From: a virus
Direction: 5' to 3' (one strand)
Length of the DNA: 23,079 bases
IMG/VR virus record: IMGVR_UViG_3300003621_000025
Coordinates: 1,437 to 24,515 of that record
Shown: positions 2,350 to 9,915 of the stretch, piece after piece
Position numbering within the stretch: the stretch's first letter is position 1
How the letters are laid out: each line of letters begins with the position of its first letter
Notes under the pieces: generated by a model
Database searches by the model: none
Seen by the model: the letters and a program-made list of their open reading frames with translations, nothing else
What the model was told of the DNA's origin: nothing
Translations under genes and position numbers: made by a program

Positions 2350-4446
2350 TTCTTCCTGTATCATCCAATTAGGACCACAAGAGAACTCAATATCCAGAGG
2401 CAAGGTAGCCTTGTAATTGAACCGCTCGAGCATCTCATCAGGCACACCAGTCATGGCCCACTTGAGTCCTTGTTTTACCTGATCAATTTCATCTGGGTGG
2501 ATGTCTACGACAATGCTGTCATGCACAGTCAGTATCAACTTGGACTGTAACTTATGCTCACGGAAATACTTCTGCGCTCGGATACAGGCTAAGGGGACTT
2601 GGTCTGCTGTAGCAAAACTCTGCACCGGAAAGTTTACCACTTGGGTGTGGTTAGTGACCCTACCTGACCGCATACGTTTGGCTCCGGGGAAGGCGAACTG
2701 TCGTCCAGAAGGTGTCTGGATGTAGCCCTTCTTCAGAACATCGTCAGCCAATTCTGAATGCCACTTCTTTAGGCCTTTGTAGACGTTGAAGTATTCTTGG
2801 AAGTAGACCTGAACATGGCTCGGCAGACCTGCTCCCATGCCCCCATAAAGGGGAGCGAACGTCACCGCCTTTGCCGCAGACCTTTGATCCTTTGTGACCT
2901 CACTGGCCTCGATCTGGTGGATAATACCAGCGGTCTGGCTGTGAACGTCTTTGCCGTTCTTAATGTCCGATATGATCTGAGGGTCTTGTGATAGTTCCCC
3001 CGCCACACGGAACTCTAGGCCAGAGAAGTCGGCCTCTCCAATTAACCCATTTTCGAATCGGCTAATGATAGCCTTTCGTACCTCGAACTTATTCCCCTTA
3101 GGTAAGTTCTGGAAGTTAGGGTTTGTCGAAGACAGTCGTCCAGTAGCAGTAACAGTCTGGTTAAAGCTGCTGTGTAGTAGTCCACTGGGACGTGTCCAAG
3201 CATTGATGCCTTTGATGAAACTATCGAGGTAGGTACTGATCGCATTCAACCGGCTAGTCTTCTCCAAGAACTCTACCGCAATTAAGTTGTCCTTGAACTT
3301 AGCCTGTTGGATGAGGCGCTTGACCGTAGTCTTGTCGGTCTTGAACCCGTTGATGGACGCATCCGCAGCCGACGTAGGTGTCAGCTTTAATCCGGCTACA
3401 CGACCTGTAGGCACATACAAAGCACCTTCACCCTTACAGACAGGGCACTTGGTAAGCTGCTTATACGGCTGGCCGTCCTTGCGTATCTTCTGGATCTTAC
3501 CCTTACCATCACACTCGATGCAGTGGTGTGCCACTGTCCGGTAGACCTTCTGGGTGGTCTCACGAACACACCGAGCAAACTGGCTCTGGTTTTGGCGGGG
3601 TGGATAGAGGGGTCGACCTCTGGCATCCACTCCAATGTTCCAACGCTTACGGTGTTCATCACGGTCTATGACCTGACGGCTGTAGACTACCTTAGACATG
3701 TCGCCGCCAGAGTTTAAGTTGATAGGGGTATCGCCCATAACCTCTTCGACGATCTCTACCAGACGCTTCTCTAGCTGATCCTTCTCAGCCTGATAACCTC
3801 GACCCACCTCTTCAAGGACATCCAGATCAATACGAATGCCGTTGCCTTCAATTTCGAGAAGGAAGCCCATCATATCAAACATAAGGTCCAGCACCTTGTT
3901 AAGAGGCTGGCCGTACTCCGTCTGTAGCTCGTCTTGTTGCTGGTAGTATATCTCTGAACAGGCAATGACATCTGCATCAGCATACTCGTGGACCGTAGCC
4001 AGAGGCATGGCTTCGAAGCCTGTGCCAGACCTAAACAACTCGTCCACCAAGTCAGACTTCTTGCGAGTAACATTGCGCCGCTCGGCTGTAGCTTTAAGAG
4101 ACAACTCTGTGCGCTGGCCACGGGCCAGAACATACTCCGCCACCATCGTGCAGTATATACGATCTGGTATACGAAACCCCATCTCGATCAGCCAGAAGGC
4201 GTCGAACTTAGTGTTGTGGCACACCATTAGATCCGCCCAGTCTAATGCCTCTTGCAAAGCATCTCGGCTGTCAGGAATGTCCTGCTCGTTGTGGTGGTAG
4301 ACAGACCGCTCTACAGTTGGCCCAAAGATATCCGCCTTAGCCCAATAGGCCGCCACGCATTTGTTATCTGGGTTCTTTGGAGAGTTGTCCGTCTTATCGT
4401 TTATCTTCTTAACGGTGGTCTCTAGATCAAGAAATAGGACGTTCAT
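2335..4446 (-). CDS. Family A DNA polymerase with 3'-5' exonuclease and DnaJ-type zinc insertion
   Basis: This is the replicative polymerase (703 residues). Exonuclease motifs are DLET (D7, E9), HNTKFD (D82) and YADAD (D159), all with their acidic residues. Polymerase motif A is DFSGLEFR (D473), motif B has R522, K526, F530 and Y534, and motif C is VHDS (H642, D643); a conserved RLSSTNPNFQNLP segment lies at 437-449. Between the domains, residues 309-341 hold CIECDGKG and CPVCKGEG, two CxxCxGxG repeats as in the DnaJ central domain. That insertion is known, from memory, in HMO-2011-type marine phages. The residue equivalent to E. coli Phe762 is Phe530. The ATG at 4446 shares ATGA with a 52-residue gene upstream. 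Confidence 0.96.
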   Translation of the reverse strand: MNVLFLDLETTVKKINDKTDNSPKNPDNKCVAAYWAKADIFGPTVERSVYHHNEQDIPDSRDALQEALDWADLMVCHNTKFDAFWLIEMGFRIPDRIYCTMVAEYVLARGQRTELSLKATAERRNVTRKKSDLVDELFRSGTGFEAMPLATVHEYADADVIACSEIYYQQQDELQTEYGQPLNKVLDLMFDMMGFLLEIEGNGIRIDLDVLEEVGRGYQAEKDQLEKRLVEIVEEVMGDTPINLNSGGDMSKVVYSRQVIDRDEHRKRWNIGVDARGRPLYPPRQNQSQFARCVRETTQKVYRTVAHHCIECDGKGKIQKIRKDGQPYKQLTKCPVCKGEGALYVPTGRVAGLKLTPTSAADASINGFKTDKTTVKRLIQQAKFKDNLIAVEFLEKTSRLNAISTYLDSFIKGINAWTRPSGLLHSSFNQTVTATGRLSSTNPNFQNLPKGNKFEVRKAIISRFENGLIGEADFSGLEFRVAGELSQDPQIISDIKNGKDVHSQTAGIIHQIEASEVTKDQRSAAKAVTFAPLYGGMGAGLPSHVQVYFQEYFNVYKGLKKWHSELADDVLKKGYIQTPSGRQFAFPGAKRMRSGRVTNHTQVVNFPVQSFATADQVPLACIRAQKYFREHKLQSKLILTVHDSIVVDIHPDEIDQVKQGLKWAMTGVPDEMLERFNYKATLPLDIEFSCGPNWMIQEELSVD

Positions 4447-6154: not shown

Positions 6155-6928
6155 CTACAGCATTAGCTGCGTCCGCATCTCACTTACGGTCAAATGTTTC
6201 AAGTCCGTATTTGTGAATCTAACGCTCACCTCTACTAAACCACCAATACTGCTGGCTATGGACACTGCCTTACTACTAGCATCCTTGTCAAGAATAATTA
6301 TTACCTTAGCTAAGTGGCGTAGTTCAGATCTAATAGTTGGAGTAATCTTTGTGCCTAAGAGTGCGTAGCCGCTGTAGCCATCTATTCTAGAGACAGAACA
6401 GGCTGAAGGTGTATCCTCGACTAATACTGGGATACCACTACCTACTTGTATTCCCTTACTTGTATCGCCGTAAGTATACCACTTGGGTGTCCTACCGTCT
6501 AAAGCTCGGCCTACCGCACCTTTACCGTCTGAGGTATAGAATAGAACTCTATTGTCTCTAGGAGCATATTGAACCCTGATATCACCACAAGAGTAAGCCT
6601 CCCAGCTATTTACTGAGTGTAGGTATTCTATGGCCTCTGGGTGATTCTTGGGTGAACTAACTATTTTAGGCAGAGAGTTATAGTAGACCGCCTTAGCCGT
6701 CTTCTTCTGGATATGATTCTTAATTCCGTCTAAGCCTCTACCAACTTGATGAGATCCTTTGATCCCACAAGATGACCTGAAGCAATTCCAAAGAAGTCTT
6801 CCATCCTGCTTGAGTATACCAAACTTCTTACGGCCTCCGCAGAATGGGCAGTCTAAGGATTTCTTCTCCCCATCTGCTAATTTGATAGACGATAGTATCT
6901 CTACTTGGTCTCGGTATGAGTACTGCAT
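6155..6928 (-). CDS. DNA primase with zinc ribbon and TOPRIM domain
   Basis: The 257-residue protein has an N-terminal zinc ribbon C27-x2-C30 ... C49-x4-C54 (DCPFCGG, WNCFRSSCG) and a TOPRIM core: VLVED with E171 and the DxD motif ILDKDAS with D214 and D216. This is the layout of the primase half of T7 gp4, which makes RNA primers for the lagging strand. The helicase half is a separate gene here (4591-5811). The ATG at 6928 is chosen because GGAGG lies six bases upstream; a GTG at 6940 lies upstream of that site. The gene is visibly richer in A+T than its neighbours, which may indicate a separate origin. Confidence 0.88.
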   Translation of the reverse strand: MQYSYRDQVEILSSIKLADGEKKSLDCPFCGGRKKFGILKQDGRLLWNCFRSSCGIKGSHQVGRGLDGIKNHIQKKTAKAVYYNSLPKIVSSPKNHPEAIEYLHSVNSWEAYSCGDIRVQYAPRDNRVLFYTSDGKGAVGRALDGRTPKWYTYGDTSKGIQVGSGIPVLVEDTPSACSVSRIDGYSGYALLGTKITPTIRSELRHLAKVIIILDKDASSKAVSIASSIGGLVEVSVRFTNTDLKHLTVSEMRTQLML

Positions 6929-6953
6929 CTTAGCCTCCACTAAGGGGACGGTC

Positions 6954-6969
6954 GGGGCCTAGCGGCCCC
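6954..6969. other. Perfect GC hairpin in primase leader
   Basis: GGGGCC-TAGC-GGCCCC is a perfect 6-bp inverted repeat lying between operator site C and the primase ribosome site. In the minus-strand transcript it would form a leader hairpin. The flanking TCCCTTTT on the plus strand also makes it resemble a weak plus-strand terminator, but no plus gene precedes it. Confidence 0.4.
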
Positions 6970-6996: not shown

Positions 6997-7020
6997 TCTA
7001 GTGCTAAAATGCGCACTTAG
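6997..7020 (-). promoter_or_regulatory. Operator-like site C in front of primase unit
   Basis: CACTTAG (7014-7020) is intact and the partner arm ten bases away keeps only AGTG (TCTAGTG, 6997-7003). The full-match arm is followed by TTAAC, and the same CACTTAGTTAAC string occurs at site D in front of the integrase. The position upstream of the primase leader fits a regulated early promoter; the -35 and -10 boxes are not clear. Confidence 0.42.
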
Positions 7021-7078
7021 TTAACAGGCCAGCCACTACCACTAGCTGCAACTCACTGATATACCTACTAGGTCGTAT

Positions 7079-7118
7079 ACCCTGAAGGTCGTAGGTTCAA
7101 ATCCTACTCCCGCAACCA
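7079..7118 (+). other. attP: Putative attP core: 3' half of initiator tRNA-fMet
   Basis: From ACCCTGAAGG to the terminal CAACCA this stretch equals the 3' half of a bacterial initiator tRNA: end of the anticodon stem, variable loop AGGTC, T stem GTAGG/CCTAC around TTCAAAT, then acceptor strand TCCCGCA, discriminator A and CCA. The 5' half is absent, so it is not a tRNA gene. Temperate phages often carry such a fragment so that integration rebuilds the host tRNA. ACTGATAT occurs as a direct repeat on both sides (7055-7062 and 7123-7130), possible integrase arm sites. The integrase lies 1.7 kb away. Confidence 0.8.
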
Positions 7119-7144
7119 AAGTACTGATATCATTAAATAAACTT

Positions 7145-7158
7145 ACCCCTAGTGGGGT
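7145..7158 (-). terminator. Possible terminator of integrase/ThyX unit
   Basis: ACCCC-TAGT-GGGGT forms a 5-bp stem ten bases after the stop of the 2OG-oxygenase-like gene. On the minus strand it is followed by AAGTTTATTT, a T-rich but interrupted tract, so termination is plausible but weak. Confidence 0.35.
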
Positions 7159-7168
7159 GGAGTGGGCT

Positions 7169-7726
7169 TTAGTGGCCTCCGTCTGAAGTTTTTTCAGTGT
7201 CGAAGATCTTACAGACGGTATCGAAGTCCAGTTTAGTAGACAGAGCCAAAGCGATTCGATCTTTATCAGACCCAGAGTGAACACTGTGTATCTTCGTTAC
7301 ATCTAGGATGTATGCGTCTCCATCTTCTGCCACAAAGGATGCAATAGTGTCTACATCCTCGAACTGGTAGGAGCAGCCTGTAGTCTGATTAGGCAGCTTG
7401 AACGGCTTGGCACCCTCCTTGAGCTTATTGAAGTCCGTAGTGTATCCGCCAGCCTTTAGGTACAGGTTAACAACCGTACACACGCCGCTGTCGATGTGTG
7501 GAATGATGTCTCGGTTGATGTGCATATGTAGAGGCACGAACTTATGCCTTAATGGCGCAGGCATATGGTTGAGTAGCTGGGCTGTCAGCTTATGGCTGAT
7601 GATGCAGTTCTTGTAGGCAATGCCCTCGAACTCACCATCCTTCTCTATGCCATACTTAATCACGTCAATGGGACCGGCTGACACCTCTTGGGCGTCAAAT
7701 CCTATGTTTATCTTTTTATAGTGCAT
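7169..7726 (-). CDS. 2OG-Fe(II) oxygenase-like protein
   Basis: The 185-residue protein has an HxD pair (H77, D79 in PHIDSG), a hydrophobic beta strand VVNLYL, then GDAYILDVTKIHSVH with candidate distal His residues H147 and H150 and a following Arg (R157). This is the iron and 2-oxoglutarate binding order of the double-stranded beta-helix dioxygenases, many of which hydroxylate proteins or small molecules and are common in marine phages. The substrate is unknown. The ATG at 7726 has GGAG eleven bases upstream. It is the last gene of the integrase/ThyX unit, 63 bases beyond ThyX. The fold is inferred from motif spacing only. Confidence 0.55.
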   Translation of the reverse strand: MHYKKINIGFDAQEVSAGPIDVIKYGIEKDGEFEGIAYKNCIISHKLTAQLLNHMPAPLRHKFVPLHMHINRDIIPHIDSGVCTVVNLYLKAGGYTTDFNKLKEGAKPFKLPNQTTGCSYQFEDVDTIASFVAEDGDAYILDVTKIHSVHSGSDKDRIALALSTKLDFDTVCKIFDTEKTSDGGH

Positions 7727-7789: not shown

Positions 7790-8545
7790 TCACAGGTTTT
7801 TATCTTTTACGGTAATAAGGGCATCCCAGCTTACAGGGAACAACTCCTGCATCGTCTCACTGATCTGATCAGCTACTACACGGCTCTCGTACTGCGTGTC
7901 AGAGGCACACCGTAGGCGGCACATATTAGCAAAGGCATCTAAGCTACCAGACCAGTACCACTCAGTCATGGTGGACTGTGGTAAGACCATACGTGCCATC
8001 TCAGGGGCGACATCGCTGTTTAACATGCCATGGTACAAACTGAGGGCTTCCTCGTGTACGTAAGAAGTCCATTGATTGGGTTCTCGCTCTACGTTGTCGT
8101 AAAAAGGATGGCCATCTATTGAAAGTTCATAATCTTGTTCCATCCAGTGTAGAACCTCAATCACTTCATCGCTTGAACCTTGCTTCTTGTCTTCACTACG
8201 CCCACGCCATACCTCAGGCTGATAGAACTCAGGCTCATCATCGACGTACCGACGGGATATTTCATTCCACCGGAGATAGGAATGTTTGACCAACTGACGT
8301 GCTACAAAGATCGGAGCCTTGACGTGGAAGGATGCGAAGGCATGACCGAAGGGTGACAGATGCTTATGCTTGGCTAGGTAGTCTATTAGCTTGGTGTCTC
8401 CTGCCTTCAGTGTATTGCCATTACCTGTTCCACTCTCTAGCTCTTTAGACCAGTTCCACGCACTCTTCTTACCAAACGATACCCGTGCTGCGTTTACTAC
8501 GGACAGGTCACTGCCCATGTGGTCGATGTATGTTGCTCTAATCAT
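7790..8545 (-). CDS. thyX: Flavin-dependent thymidylate synthase ThyX
   Basis: ThyX makes dTMP from dUMP using FAD, NADPH and methylene-tetrahydrofolate, which supplies thymidine for phage DNA. The 251-residue protein has HLSPFGHAF (62-70), matching the conserved HxSPFEH region, and the signature helix R83...K87-H88-S89...N94-E95-x-S97-x-R99-Y100. The classical motif RHRx7S begins here as KHS, as I recall from other marine phage ThyX proteins; N, E, S, R and Y are kept. A C-terminal RLRCASDTQYE segment matches the conserved region that contacts dUMP. The start shares one base with the preceding stop (TAATG), so it is coupled. Confidence 0.93.
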   Translation of the reverse strand: MIRATYIDHMGSDLSVVNAARVSFGKKSAWNWSKELESGTGNGNTLKAGDTKLIDYLAKHKHLSPFGHAFASFHVKAPIFVARQLVKHSYLRWNEISRRYVDDEPEFYQPEVWRGRSEDKKQGSSDEVIEVLHWMEQDYELSIDGHPFYDNVEREPNQWTSYVHEEALSLYHGMLNSDVAPEMARMVLPQSTMTEWYWSGSLDAFANMCRLRCASDTQYESRVVADQISETMQELFPVSWDALITVKDKNL

Positions 8546-8703
8546 TAGAAGGGGGGTTCTCCGTTCTCATCCAATTCTGGCATATTATATTCAAAGGTCC
8601 GTGGGACCACGGGTTCGTTCTGTGTTTCCTCAAGAGGATGGCGGGGTAGTATTCCCATCTGTTCCATCTCTTTGAGGATGTAGGCGGGGATGTTATCTTC
8701 CAT
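8545..8703 (-). CDS. Small acidic hypothetical protein before ThyX
   Basis: The 52-residue protein begins MEDNIPAYILKEMEQMGILP and ends ENGEPPF. It has a short helical N-terminus followed by a proline-rich acidic stretch, probably disordered. It overlaps the preceding small gene by 11 bases and ThyX by one base, so translation is coupled on both sides, which is the main reason to accept it. No family is recognised. Confidence 0.65.
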   Translation of the reverse strand: MEDNIPAYILKEMEQMGILPRHPLEETQNEPVVPRTFEYNMPELDENGEPPF

Positions 8704-8839
8704 CTCGTTTCCTTAGCTGGTCTCGGACTGCTACGATCAGGTCGATCAGTCTCTCTGTGGTTTGTTGTGTTGGCTTGCCTACCAACCGCTCTAGTTCTTG
8801 CTCAAATGCCTTTCGGGCCTCGTTTATGTCGTCTGTCAT
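8693..8839 (-). CDS. Small helical hypothetical protein after integrase
   Basis: The 48-residue protein begins MTDDINEARKAFEQELERLV and ends LRKRDGR. It looks like two amphipathic helices with alternating charged residues. Its ATG shares ATGA with the integrase stop and its end overlaps the next small gene by 11 bases, so it belongs to the integrase/ThyX unit. No family is recognised; a small dimeric helical protein such as an integrase cofactor is possible, but nothing in the sequence shows it. Confidence 0.62.
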   Translation of the reverse strand: MTDDINEARKAFEQELERLVGKPTQQTTERLIDLIVAVRDQLRKRDGR

Positions 8840-9915
8840 CCAAACCTCTTGCTCATTGCTTTCGAAGCCAGCTTCTTAGTTGGCCTCACATAGACGTTCA
8901 GCACGTTACGGCTCATGTGACCGGTGACTGATCGTAGTTCGTCCTCGGTACAGCCAGCCTCTGCTAATTCAGTGGCTCCGGTACGTCGTAGGTCTCGTAG
9001 TTGGAGTGTCGTAGGCAGTCCTGCCGCCTCTCTGATCTTGGCGGCGTACTTGCTGTACAGTCGATTGTCGTAAGGTCTGCCTGTAGTCTCACACAGGACA
9101 ATAGGATCGTCGTCAGAGCCTCTCACAACCGTCTCTAGGCGCTCTGCTAGTCGGGGGGAGGCTTCGACATACACTTCGGCTTTTGTCTTCTCTTGGACAA
9201 AGGTGAAGACACCGTCGTTGTAGTGCTTCCAGAGCATCTTACGCATATCACCCGGGCGCTGGCACAGGTCGTAGCACATCAGAGCCAGTGTGCCGACGCT
9301 GGGTAGGCCTAGGCTGTCTGCTTTGTCGATGAAATTGGCTACTTGCTCCGGCTCCCATAGCACTACACGAGGTGGTGTCTCGGTCAGGCCCATCATAGCG
9401 AATGGGTTGGTGCTGTTAGGCGAAATGAAGCCTCGTCGTCCAGTGAACCATATGCGGCGTAGGATCTTGCACACGCCATTGGCTCGGTGGATGCTGTAGG
9501 TCTCTCGCACAGTGTCGTAGACCTTGTCTGCCATCTCGGCATCGACACCTCGAGCCAGCAACTGGCCGAAGGGGGTGTTAGACTGGCCAATGCGAAGGTG
9601 GGAGACTGTCTTGTACAAGAACCTGTACGTCCGCTGGGTGTTGGCTGACTTCAGTTTGAAGGCTTTGTGCTGTGTGTAGAAGTGAAACAAGGCATCCACG
9701 GTCTCTCTATCCAGCTTAGACCGCTTCTCTCGGGTGCGCTCGAACTCCTCAAGGGCACGGGAGATCATCTTGCAGTGTTCTACAGCCTCTTCACGGCTCT
9801 TAAACTGCTCGTAGGATGCTTCCACATGCTCTTTAGCATAGTCTGAAGGATTGCAGACCCAGATAGGACCGCTGGCCCTGTCTCTACGCTCGAGGTATTT
9901 AATCTTCTCTGTCAT
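8836..9915 (-). CDS. int: Tyrosine recombinase (phage integrase)
   Basis: The 359-residue protein has an N-terminal core-binding region (about 68-165) and a catalytic domain with R220 (QRPGD), K243 (EKTKAE), RDLRRT (307-312), H333 (TGHMS) and Y342 (NVYV). The usual HxxR box reads R307-x-x-R310, so its His is replaced by Arg while the catalytic Arg is kept. It should join attP to the host site; the tRNA-fMet fragment at 7079-7118 is the obvious candidate. The ATG at 9915 is chosen over upstream starts because GGAG lies eight bases before it. Operator site D lies just upstream, and the gene heads the unit containing ThyX. Confidence 0.92.
   Translation of the reverse strand: MTEKIKYLERRDRASGPIWVCNPSDYAKEHVEASYEQFKSREEAVEHCKMISRALEEFERTREKRSKLDRETVDALFHFYTQHKAFKLKSANTQRTYRFLYKTVSHLRIGQSNTPFGQLLARGVDAEMADKVYDTVRETYSIHRANGVCKILRRIWFTGRRGFISPNSTNPFAMMGLTETPPRVVLWEPEQVANFIDKADSLGLPSVGTLALMCYDLCQRPGDMRKMLWKHYNDGVFTFVQEKTKAEVYVEASPRLAERLETVVRGSDDDPIVLCETTGRPYDNRLYSKYAAKIREAAGLPTTLQLRDLRRTGATELAEAGCTEDELRSVTGHMSRNVLNVYVRPTKKLASKAMSKRFG

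Follow-up and report, generated by a model that had tools for sequence, protein, structure and literature searches.

Does the half tRNA in this phage genome mark its integration site, and if so, why does it lie so far from the integrase? The window (the whole stretch of DNA that we analyzed) has 23,079 nucleotides, from a virus record of 28,726 bases, and it belongs to an HMO-2011-type podovirus that is close to Roseobacter phage CRP-3. We propose that the half tRNA is the attP site of a CRP-3-like phage of the HMO-2011 type, and that a lambda-type integrase, together with IHF, carries out recombination between its 38-base core and the 3' end of the host's tRNA-fMet gene. We give this explanation a probability of roughly 95%.

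A close relative integrates at the same core

The nearest record to the window is Roseobacter phage CRP-3 (MK613345), with 75% identity across 82% of the region. The integrase is 78% identical to its CRP-3 orthologue and the primase is 71% identical. The gene order is also that of CRP-3: integrase, a small ORF, ThyX, a 2OG-like gene, the attP site, primase, helicase, and DNA polymerase. The DNA polymerase matches PF00476, PF01612, and PF00684 (the last with E = 5e-4, below its cut-off). The integrase lies upstream of primase, helicase, and polymerase, and the polymerase has an inserted DnaJ-type zinc motif, which is described as a mark of HMO-2011-type phages (PMC6918029). The most likely host of the window phage is a member of the Rhodobacteraceae.

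The integration of CRP-3 into tRNA-Met(CAT) of strain FZCC0040 was shown by sequencing reads and by PCR (PMC6918029, mSystems 2019), and the integration core overlaps the 3' end of the tRNA. The phage-side primers given there, attL-R at 2829-2849 (+) and attR-F at 3642-3662 (-), flank the CRP-3 copy of the window's core, which is at CRP-3 3170-3233, so the window segment is the orthologue of a verified attP. CRP-3, which belongs to subgroup III, has the identical 38-base core in the same slot between the primase and the 2OG-like/ThyX/integrase operon, although the surrounding DNA has diverged (about 75% identity over the region). An attP of this kind, and in the closest relative, was already known. 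What we add is its conservation across the family, an explanation for the distance to the integrase, an IHF-like site, and a predicted tRNA-Asn target for phage CRP-738.

The core matches the 3' end of an initiator tRNA

Judging from sequence identity, positions 7081-7118 (+ strand) are an attP in the initiator tRNA gene, as the first-pass annotation had proposed; the CRP-3 experiment and the junction primers around the same core (PMC6918029) agree with this. The core (CCTGAAGGTCGTAGGTTCAAATCCTACTCCCGCAACCA) reproduces the 3' end of Rhodobacteraceae tRNA-fMet without a mismatch, from position 40 to the CCA. That annotation had described a match of 40 bases up to CCA with no 5' half, and this is right except for the length: 38 contiguous bases match positions 40-77 of complete tRNA-fMet genes. 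By simple arithmetic, 46 kb of strand would contain a 38-base match by chance with a probability of about 1e-18. Among 198 sampled genomes from one family (the family of a genome named Rhodobacteraceae), 54 contain the exact 38-mer. The host genes that hold it have the form CGCGGGATGGAGCAGCC..CTCATAACCTGAAGG..CCCGCAACCA, that is, CGCGGGATGGAGCAGCCCGGTAGCTCGTCAGGCTCATAA followed by the core, and ARAGORN identifies them as tRNA-Met(cat). A C1.A72 mismatch is the hallmark of initiator tRNAs.

The core occurs once in the window and once in the entire virus record. When we scanned the window for a paired T arm with an acceptor strand and CCA, we found no second place. The 5' half of the tRNA and a complete tRNA are both absent from the window, and neither ARAGORN nor Rfam gave a match there. 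The same genome encodes a cognate tyrosine integrase with its catalytic residues. (Folded as single-stranded DNA, the attP region was unremarkable, with z = -0.31.)

Conservation of attP across relatives

To the question of whether other phages have this site, we assembled viral contigs that were found through integrase similarity alone (80 loci). In 77 of the 80, a tRNA 3' end lies between the primase and the integrase. The core is fMet-type in about 72 of these loci, and in 4 it fits another tRNA with a CAT anticodon. In the remaining 3 loci, our T-arm scan did not find the core. (In four CRP-3-like loci, L169, L187, L193, and L197, the core ends in CGGGCCTACCA and fits a second CAT-anticodon tRNA, which ARAGORN reports as Met and which could be elongator Met or Ile2.)

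In all 42 distinct fMet attPs of this set, identity to the tRNA is complete from position 40, and the crossover probably occurs at position 40 or later. The T loop is invariant among them. The T stem of the fMet core has seven paired versions: GTAGG/CCTAC, GCAGG/CCTGC, GCCAG/CTGGC, GTCAG/CTGAC, GTTGG/CCAAC, GTGGG/CCCAC, and AGAGG/CCTCT. Paired changes are expected if the core follows the host's tRNA, but this point is somewhat biased, as the scan demands that 4 or more of the 5 stem pairs form and so leans towards paired T stems.

Among Roseobacter phage isolates, CRP-212, CRP-235, and CRP-738 also have a core from a tRNA 3' end in the equivalent position. Unlike in the window phage, the T stem of the core in CRP-212 is GCAGG/CCTGC, and the core of CRP-738 (which is not among the 80 loci) matches tRNA-Asn(GTT), at about 2934-2972 on the minus strand. 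We predict from this match that CRP-738 integrates at tRNA-Asn. The literature passages that we read do not mention these sites in the three phages. The subgroup I phages HMO-2011, CRP-1, CRP-2, CRP-345, CRP-603, and CRP-207 had no tRNA 3'-end core in the 12 kb that we scanned (50 kb for HMO-2011). In subgroup I, the integrase is immediately upstream of the primase or one gene earlier. The sequence comparisons indicate that CRP-3-like HMO-2011 phages usually target the initiator tRNA. This site permits the host and the integration site to be assigned from sequence for a dominant group of marine phages, and makes targets predictable for isolates such as CRP-738.

Could the half tRNA instead be what is left of a tRNA gene once carried by the phage, or an RNA element that resembles a tRNA? 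The presence of just half of a tRNA would fit such an origin. However, the identity reaches the CCA, the position is always at the boundary of primase and integrase, relatives have different tRNA species in the same slot, and for CRP-3 this idea is refuted by the junction PCR of the integration experiment (PMC6918029). We consider it very improbable.

Cargo genes separate attP from the integrase

The first-pass annotation placed the core between the primase and the 2OG-oxygenase units, 1.7 kb from the integrase, and the coordinates confirm this. The primase (6155-6940, - strand; PHROG 47, E = 5.5e-14, and 71% identical to the CRP-3 primase) is about 140 bases to the left of the core. From the end of the core (7118) to the 3' end of the integrase gene (8836) is 1.7 kb, and there are three ORFs in this gap, all on the - strand. 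The first is a putative 2OG-Fe(II)/Asp-hydroxylase-like protein (7169-7726), for which the sole match was a weak one to PF05118 (E = 0.051, below the cut-off). Next are ThyX thymidylate synthase (7790-8545; PF02511, E = 4e-45) and a small ORF in the same operon (8545-8703), which had no PHROG match. A terminator-like hairpin at 7145-7158 (- strand), between the 2OG-like gene and attP, is at the end of the integrase-ThyX-2OG operon, and the alignment with CRP-3 has the same stem.

Across 90 distinct loci, the distance from core to integrase ranges from 76 to 2420 bases, with a median of 1223. The median is 464 where we recognized neither ThyX nor a 2OG-like gene in between, and about 1.6 kb where both are present. 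The distance from core to primase in these relatives is mostly 64-500 bases. Since the distance to the primase is short and the distance to the integrase varies with gene content, attP stays beside the primase and the cargo sits towards the integrase. The 1.7-kb gap in the window reflects the cargo (ThyX and the 2OG-like gene) within the integrase operon.

We also noticed, in the primase leader (window 6954-6969) and facing the + strand, a GC-rich hairpin with a T-rich tail after it. The words GGGGCC/GGCCCC recur at the place of this hairpin in many relatives. Another word, CATAACTA/TAGTTATG, which may be a promoter element, occurs in the interval from primase to attP. About 19 of 62 phages have it there, and 29 have CATAACT, far more often than in shuffled sequences.

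An IHF-like site beside the core

Copies of ACTGATAT are found on both sides of the core, at 7055-7062 and 7123-7130. The left copy overlaps an IHF-consensus-like site (CAACTCACTGATA, 7049-7061), which has one mismatch to YAANNNNTTGATW (the form of the IHF consensus that we used, which is the reverse of WATCAANNNNTTR) and is 31 bases before the edge of the core. This arrangement is widely conserved. Of 71 distinct attPs, 61 have an element in the left flank with at most one mismatch to the consensus, versus 3.3 expected (maximum 8) from shuffles, and 30 of 71 have the perfect consensus, versus 0.18 expected; these figures are not strict probabilities because the sequences are related. In 48 distinct attPs the element begins 31 bases before the core edge. 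Information in the element is concentrated in the columns of the IHF consensus, with TTG nearly invariant. The recurrence of the consensus at a constant spacing from the core suggests that the left element is an IHF site and that IHF takes part in integration.

The ACTGATAT direct repeats had been likened to arm sites for the integrase. The integrase does have a lambda-like N-terminal domain, and the TGATATCATT consensus is present on both sides of the core. But the left copy is part of the conserved IHF-like site, and the similarity between left and right flanks is raised in the inverted orientation alone (13.27 within phages versus 12.09 between phages, p = 2e-4); in the direct orientation, it is 12.68 within and 12.63 between. 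It is therefore unlikely that the repeats are arm-type sites. When we enumerated repeated words, we did not find arm-type sites for the integrase: on the left, the words were promoter-like or hairpin-like, and on the right, they were A/T words. The right copy (7123-7130) lies within a palindromic sequence, TGATATCA, and is a candidate for a weak second IHF-like site or an integrase site. Five of the 71 attPs have a perfect IHF consensus in the right flank, in the opposite orientation.

Integrase and proposed integration

The tyrosine integrase (8836-9915, - strand) matches PF00589 (Phage_integrase, E = 9e-13), and its catalytic columns are invariant in alignments. The predicted structure has a pLDDT of 88.5, and its best match in the PDB is full-length lambda Int (Foldseek E = 1.8e-11), with the N-terminal domain included in the match. 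Residues 1-359 of the model align to residues 9-356 of lambda Int with Z = 20.5 over 329 residues; the rmsd is 12.0 because the domains are placed differently. The predicted model thus has an N-terminal domain of the arm-binding type as well as core-binding and catalytic domains, as in heterobivalent integrases. Because the fold of lambda Int is present with its N-terminal domain, we infer that a lambda-type, IHF-assisted reaction is the most likely mechanism. The window system resembles lambda in this fold and in having an IHF-like site beside the core. It differs from the lambda attP in that the core is a tRNA 3' end and that we identified no arm-type sites.

In our proposal, IHF would bind the conserved site that lies 31 bases leftward of the core and would assist the integrase in recombining this 38-base core with the host's tRNA-fMet gene, at the 3' end of the gene. 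The 5' half of the host's tRNA would be joined to the 3' half from the phage at attL, so the tRNA would be restored there. In the integrated form, the 2OG-like/ThyX/integrase operon would be at the attL end and the primase would be at the attR end. By analogy to CRP-3, whose integration was shown by experiment, the window phage itself probably integrates in this way. The expectation that integration would split the replication genes (primase, helicase, and polymerase) from the integrase/ThyX unit fits this geometry. The absence of a full tRNA had been taken to show that the free phage form was sequenced. The conclusion is sound, as phage genes run through both sides of the core, which excludes the prophage form, but the reason is not diagnostic: we know of no attP that holds a full tRNA.

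Stable lysogeny or transient integration

The first-pass annotation suggested a search of genomes for prophages of this type. With limited sampling, we found none that were CRP-3-like in genome contigs or in 394 genomes from one family. In the genome contigs, a search with the single integrase as query found no relatives, and a search with an integrase alignment found 18 distant loci alone, whose best segments were mostly 25-33% identical. The 394 genomes gave four weak matches and no CRP-3-like prophage. Also, none of the viral contigs with a complete tRNA-fMet were from CRP-3-like phages. Among the subset of CRP-3 proteins that we scanned, we recognized no clear repressor or excisionase.

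These results would be explained if attP is functional but integration is rare and transient, occurring during lytic infection without stable lysogeny, which is a narrower version of our proposal. There is a precedent: T7-like cyanophages with an integrase and a tRNA attP integrate without forming stable lysogens (PMC8776855). Of these, S-TIP37 and P-SSP7 are, like the window phage, marine podoviruses with a tyrosine integrase and a tRNA attP, and integration has been shown in the cyanophages; unlike in the window phage, their attP is directly downstream of the integrase and corresponds to tRNA-Leu, and they form no stable lysogens. On the other hand, the integrase, the core, and the IHF-like site are intact across very divergent members of the group, which argues that integration is selected for. 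Furthermore, little can be concluded from the missing prophages, given how sparsely hosts such as RCA have been sampled. We view transient integration as a serious possibility, at somewhat less than even odds. The frequency of integration in the ocean could be measured by comparing hybrid junction reads (GGCTCATAA and the core joined to the window-type right flank) to attP reads.

Finally, the window contains candidate operators. The dyad CTAAGTG-N10-CACTTAG has 7 sites in the window versus 1.1 expected. With 0-3 mismatches, we noted it at 2326, 5845, 6997, 9944, 14256, and 15253, mostly in intergenic regions. The copy at 6997-7020 (TCTAGTG-N10-CACTTAG) is upstream of the primase, and others are upstream of the integrase, the helicase, and the gene that follows the polymerase. 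This dyad is a candidate for the operator of some regulator. Because attP is at the boundary between the integrase/ThyX operon and the replication operon, integration itself would cut the early region apart, separating primase, helicase, and polymerase from the integrase operon. In combination with dyad operators at the starts of operons, this could conceivably replace a classical repressor switch, but we consider this scenario speculative and rather unlikely. Similar dyad sites are present in CRP-3 and CRP-212.
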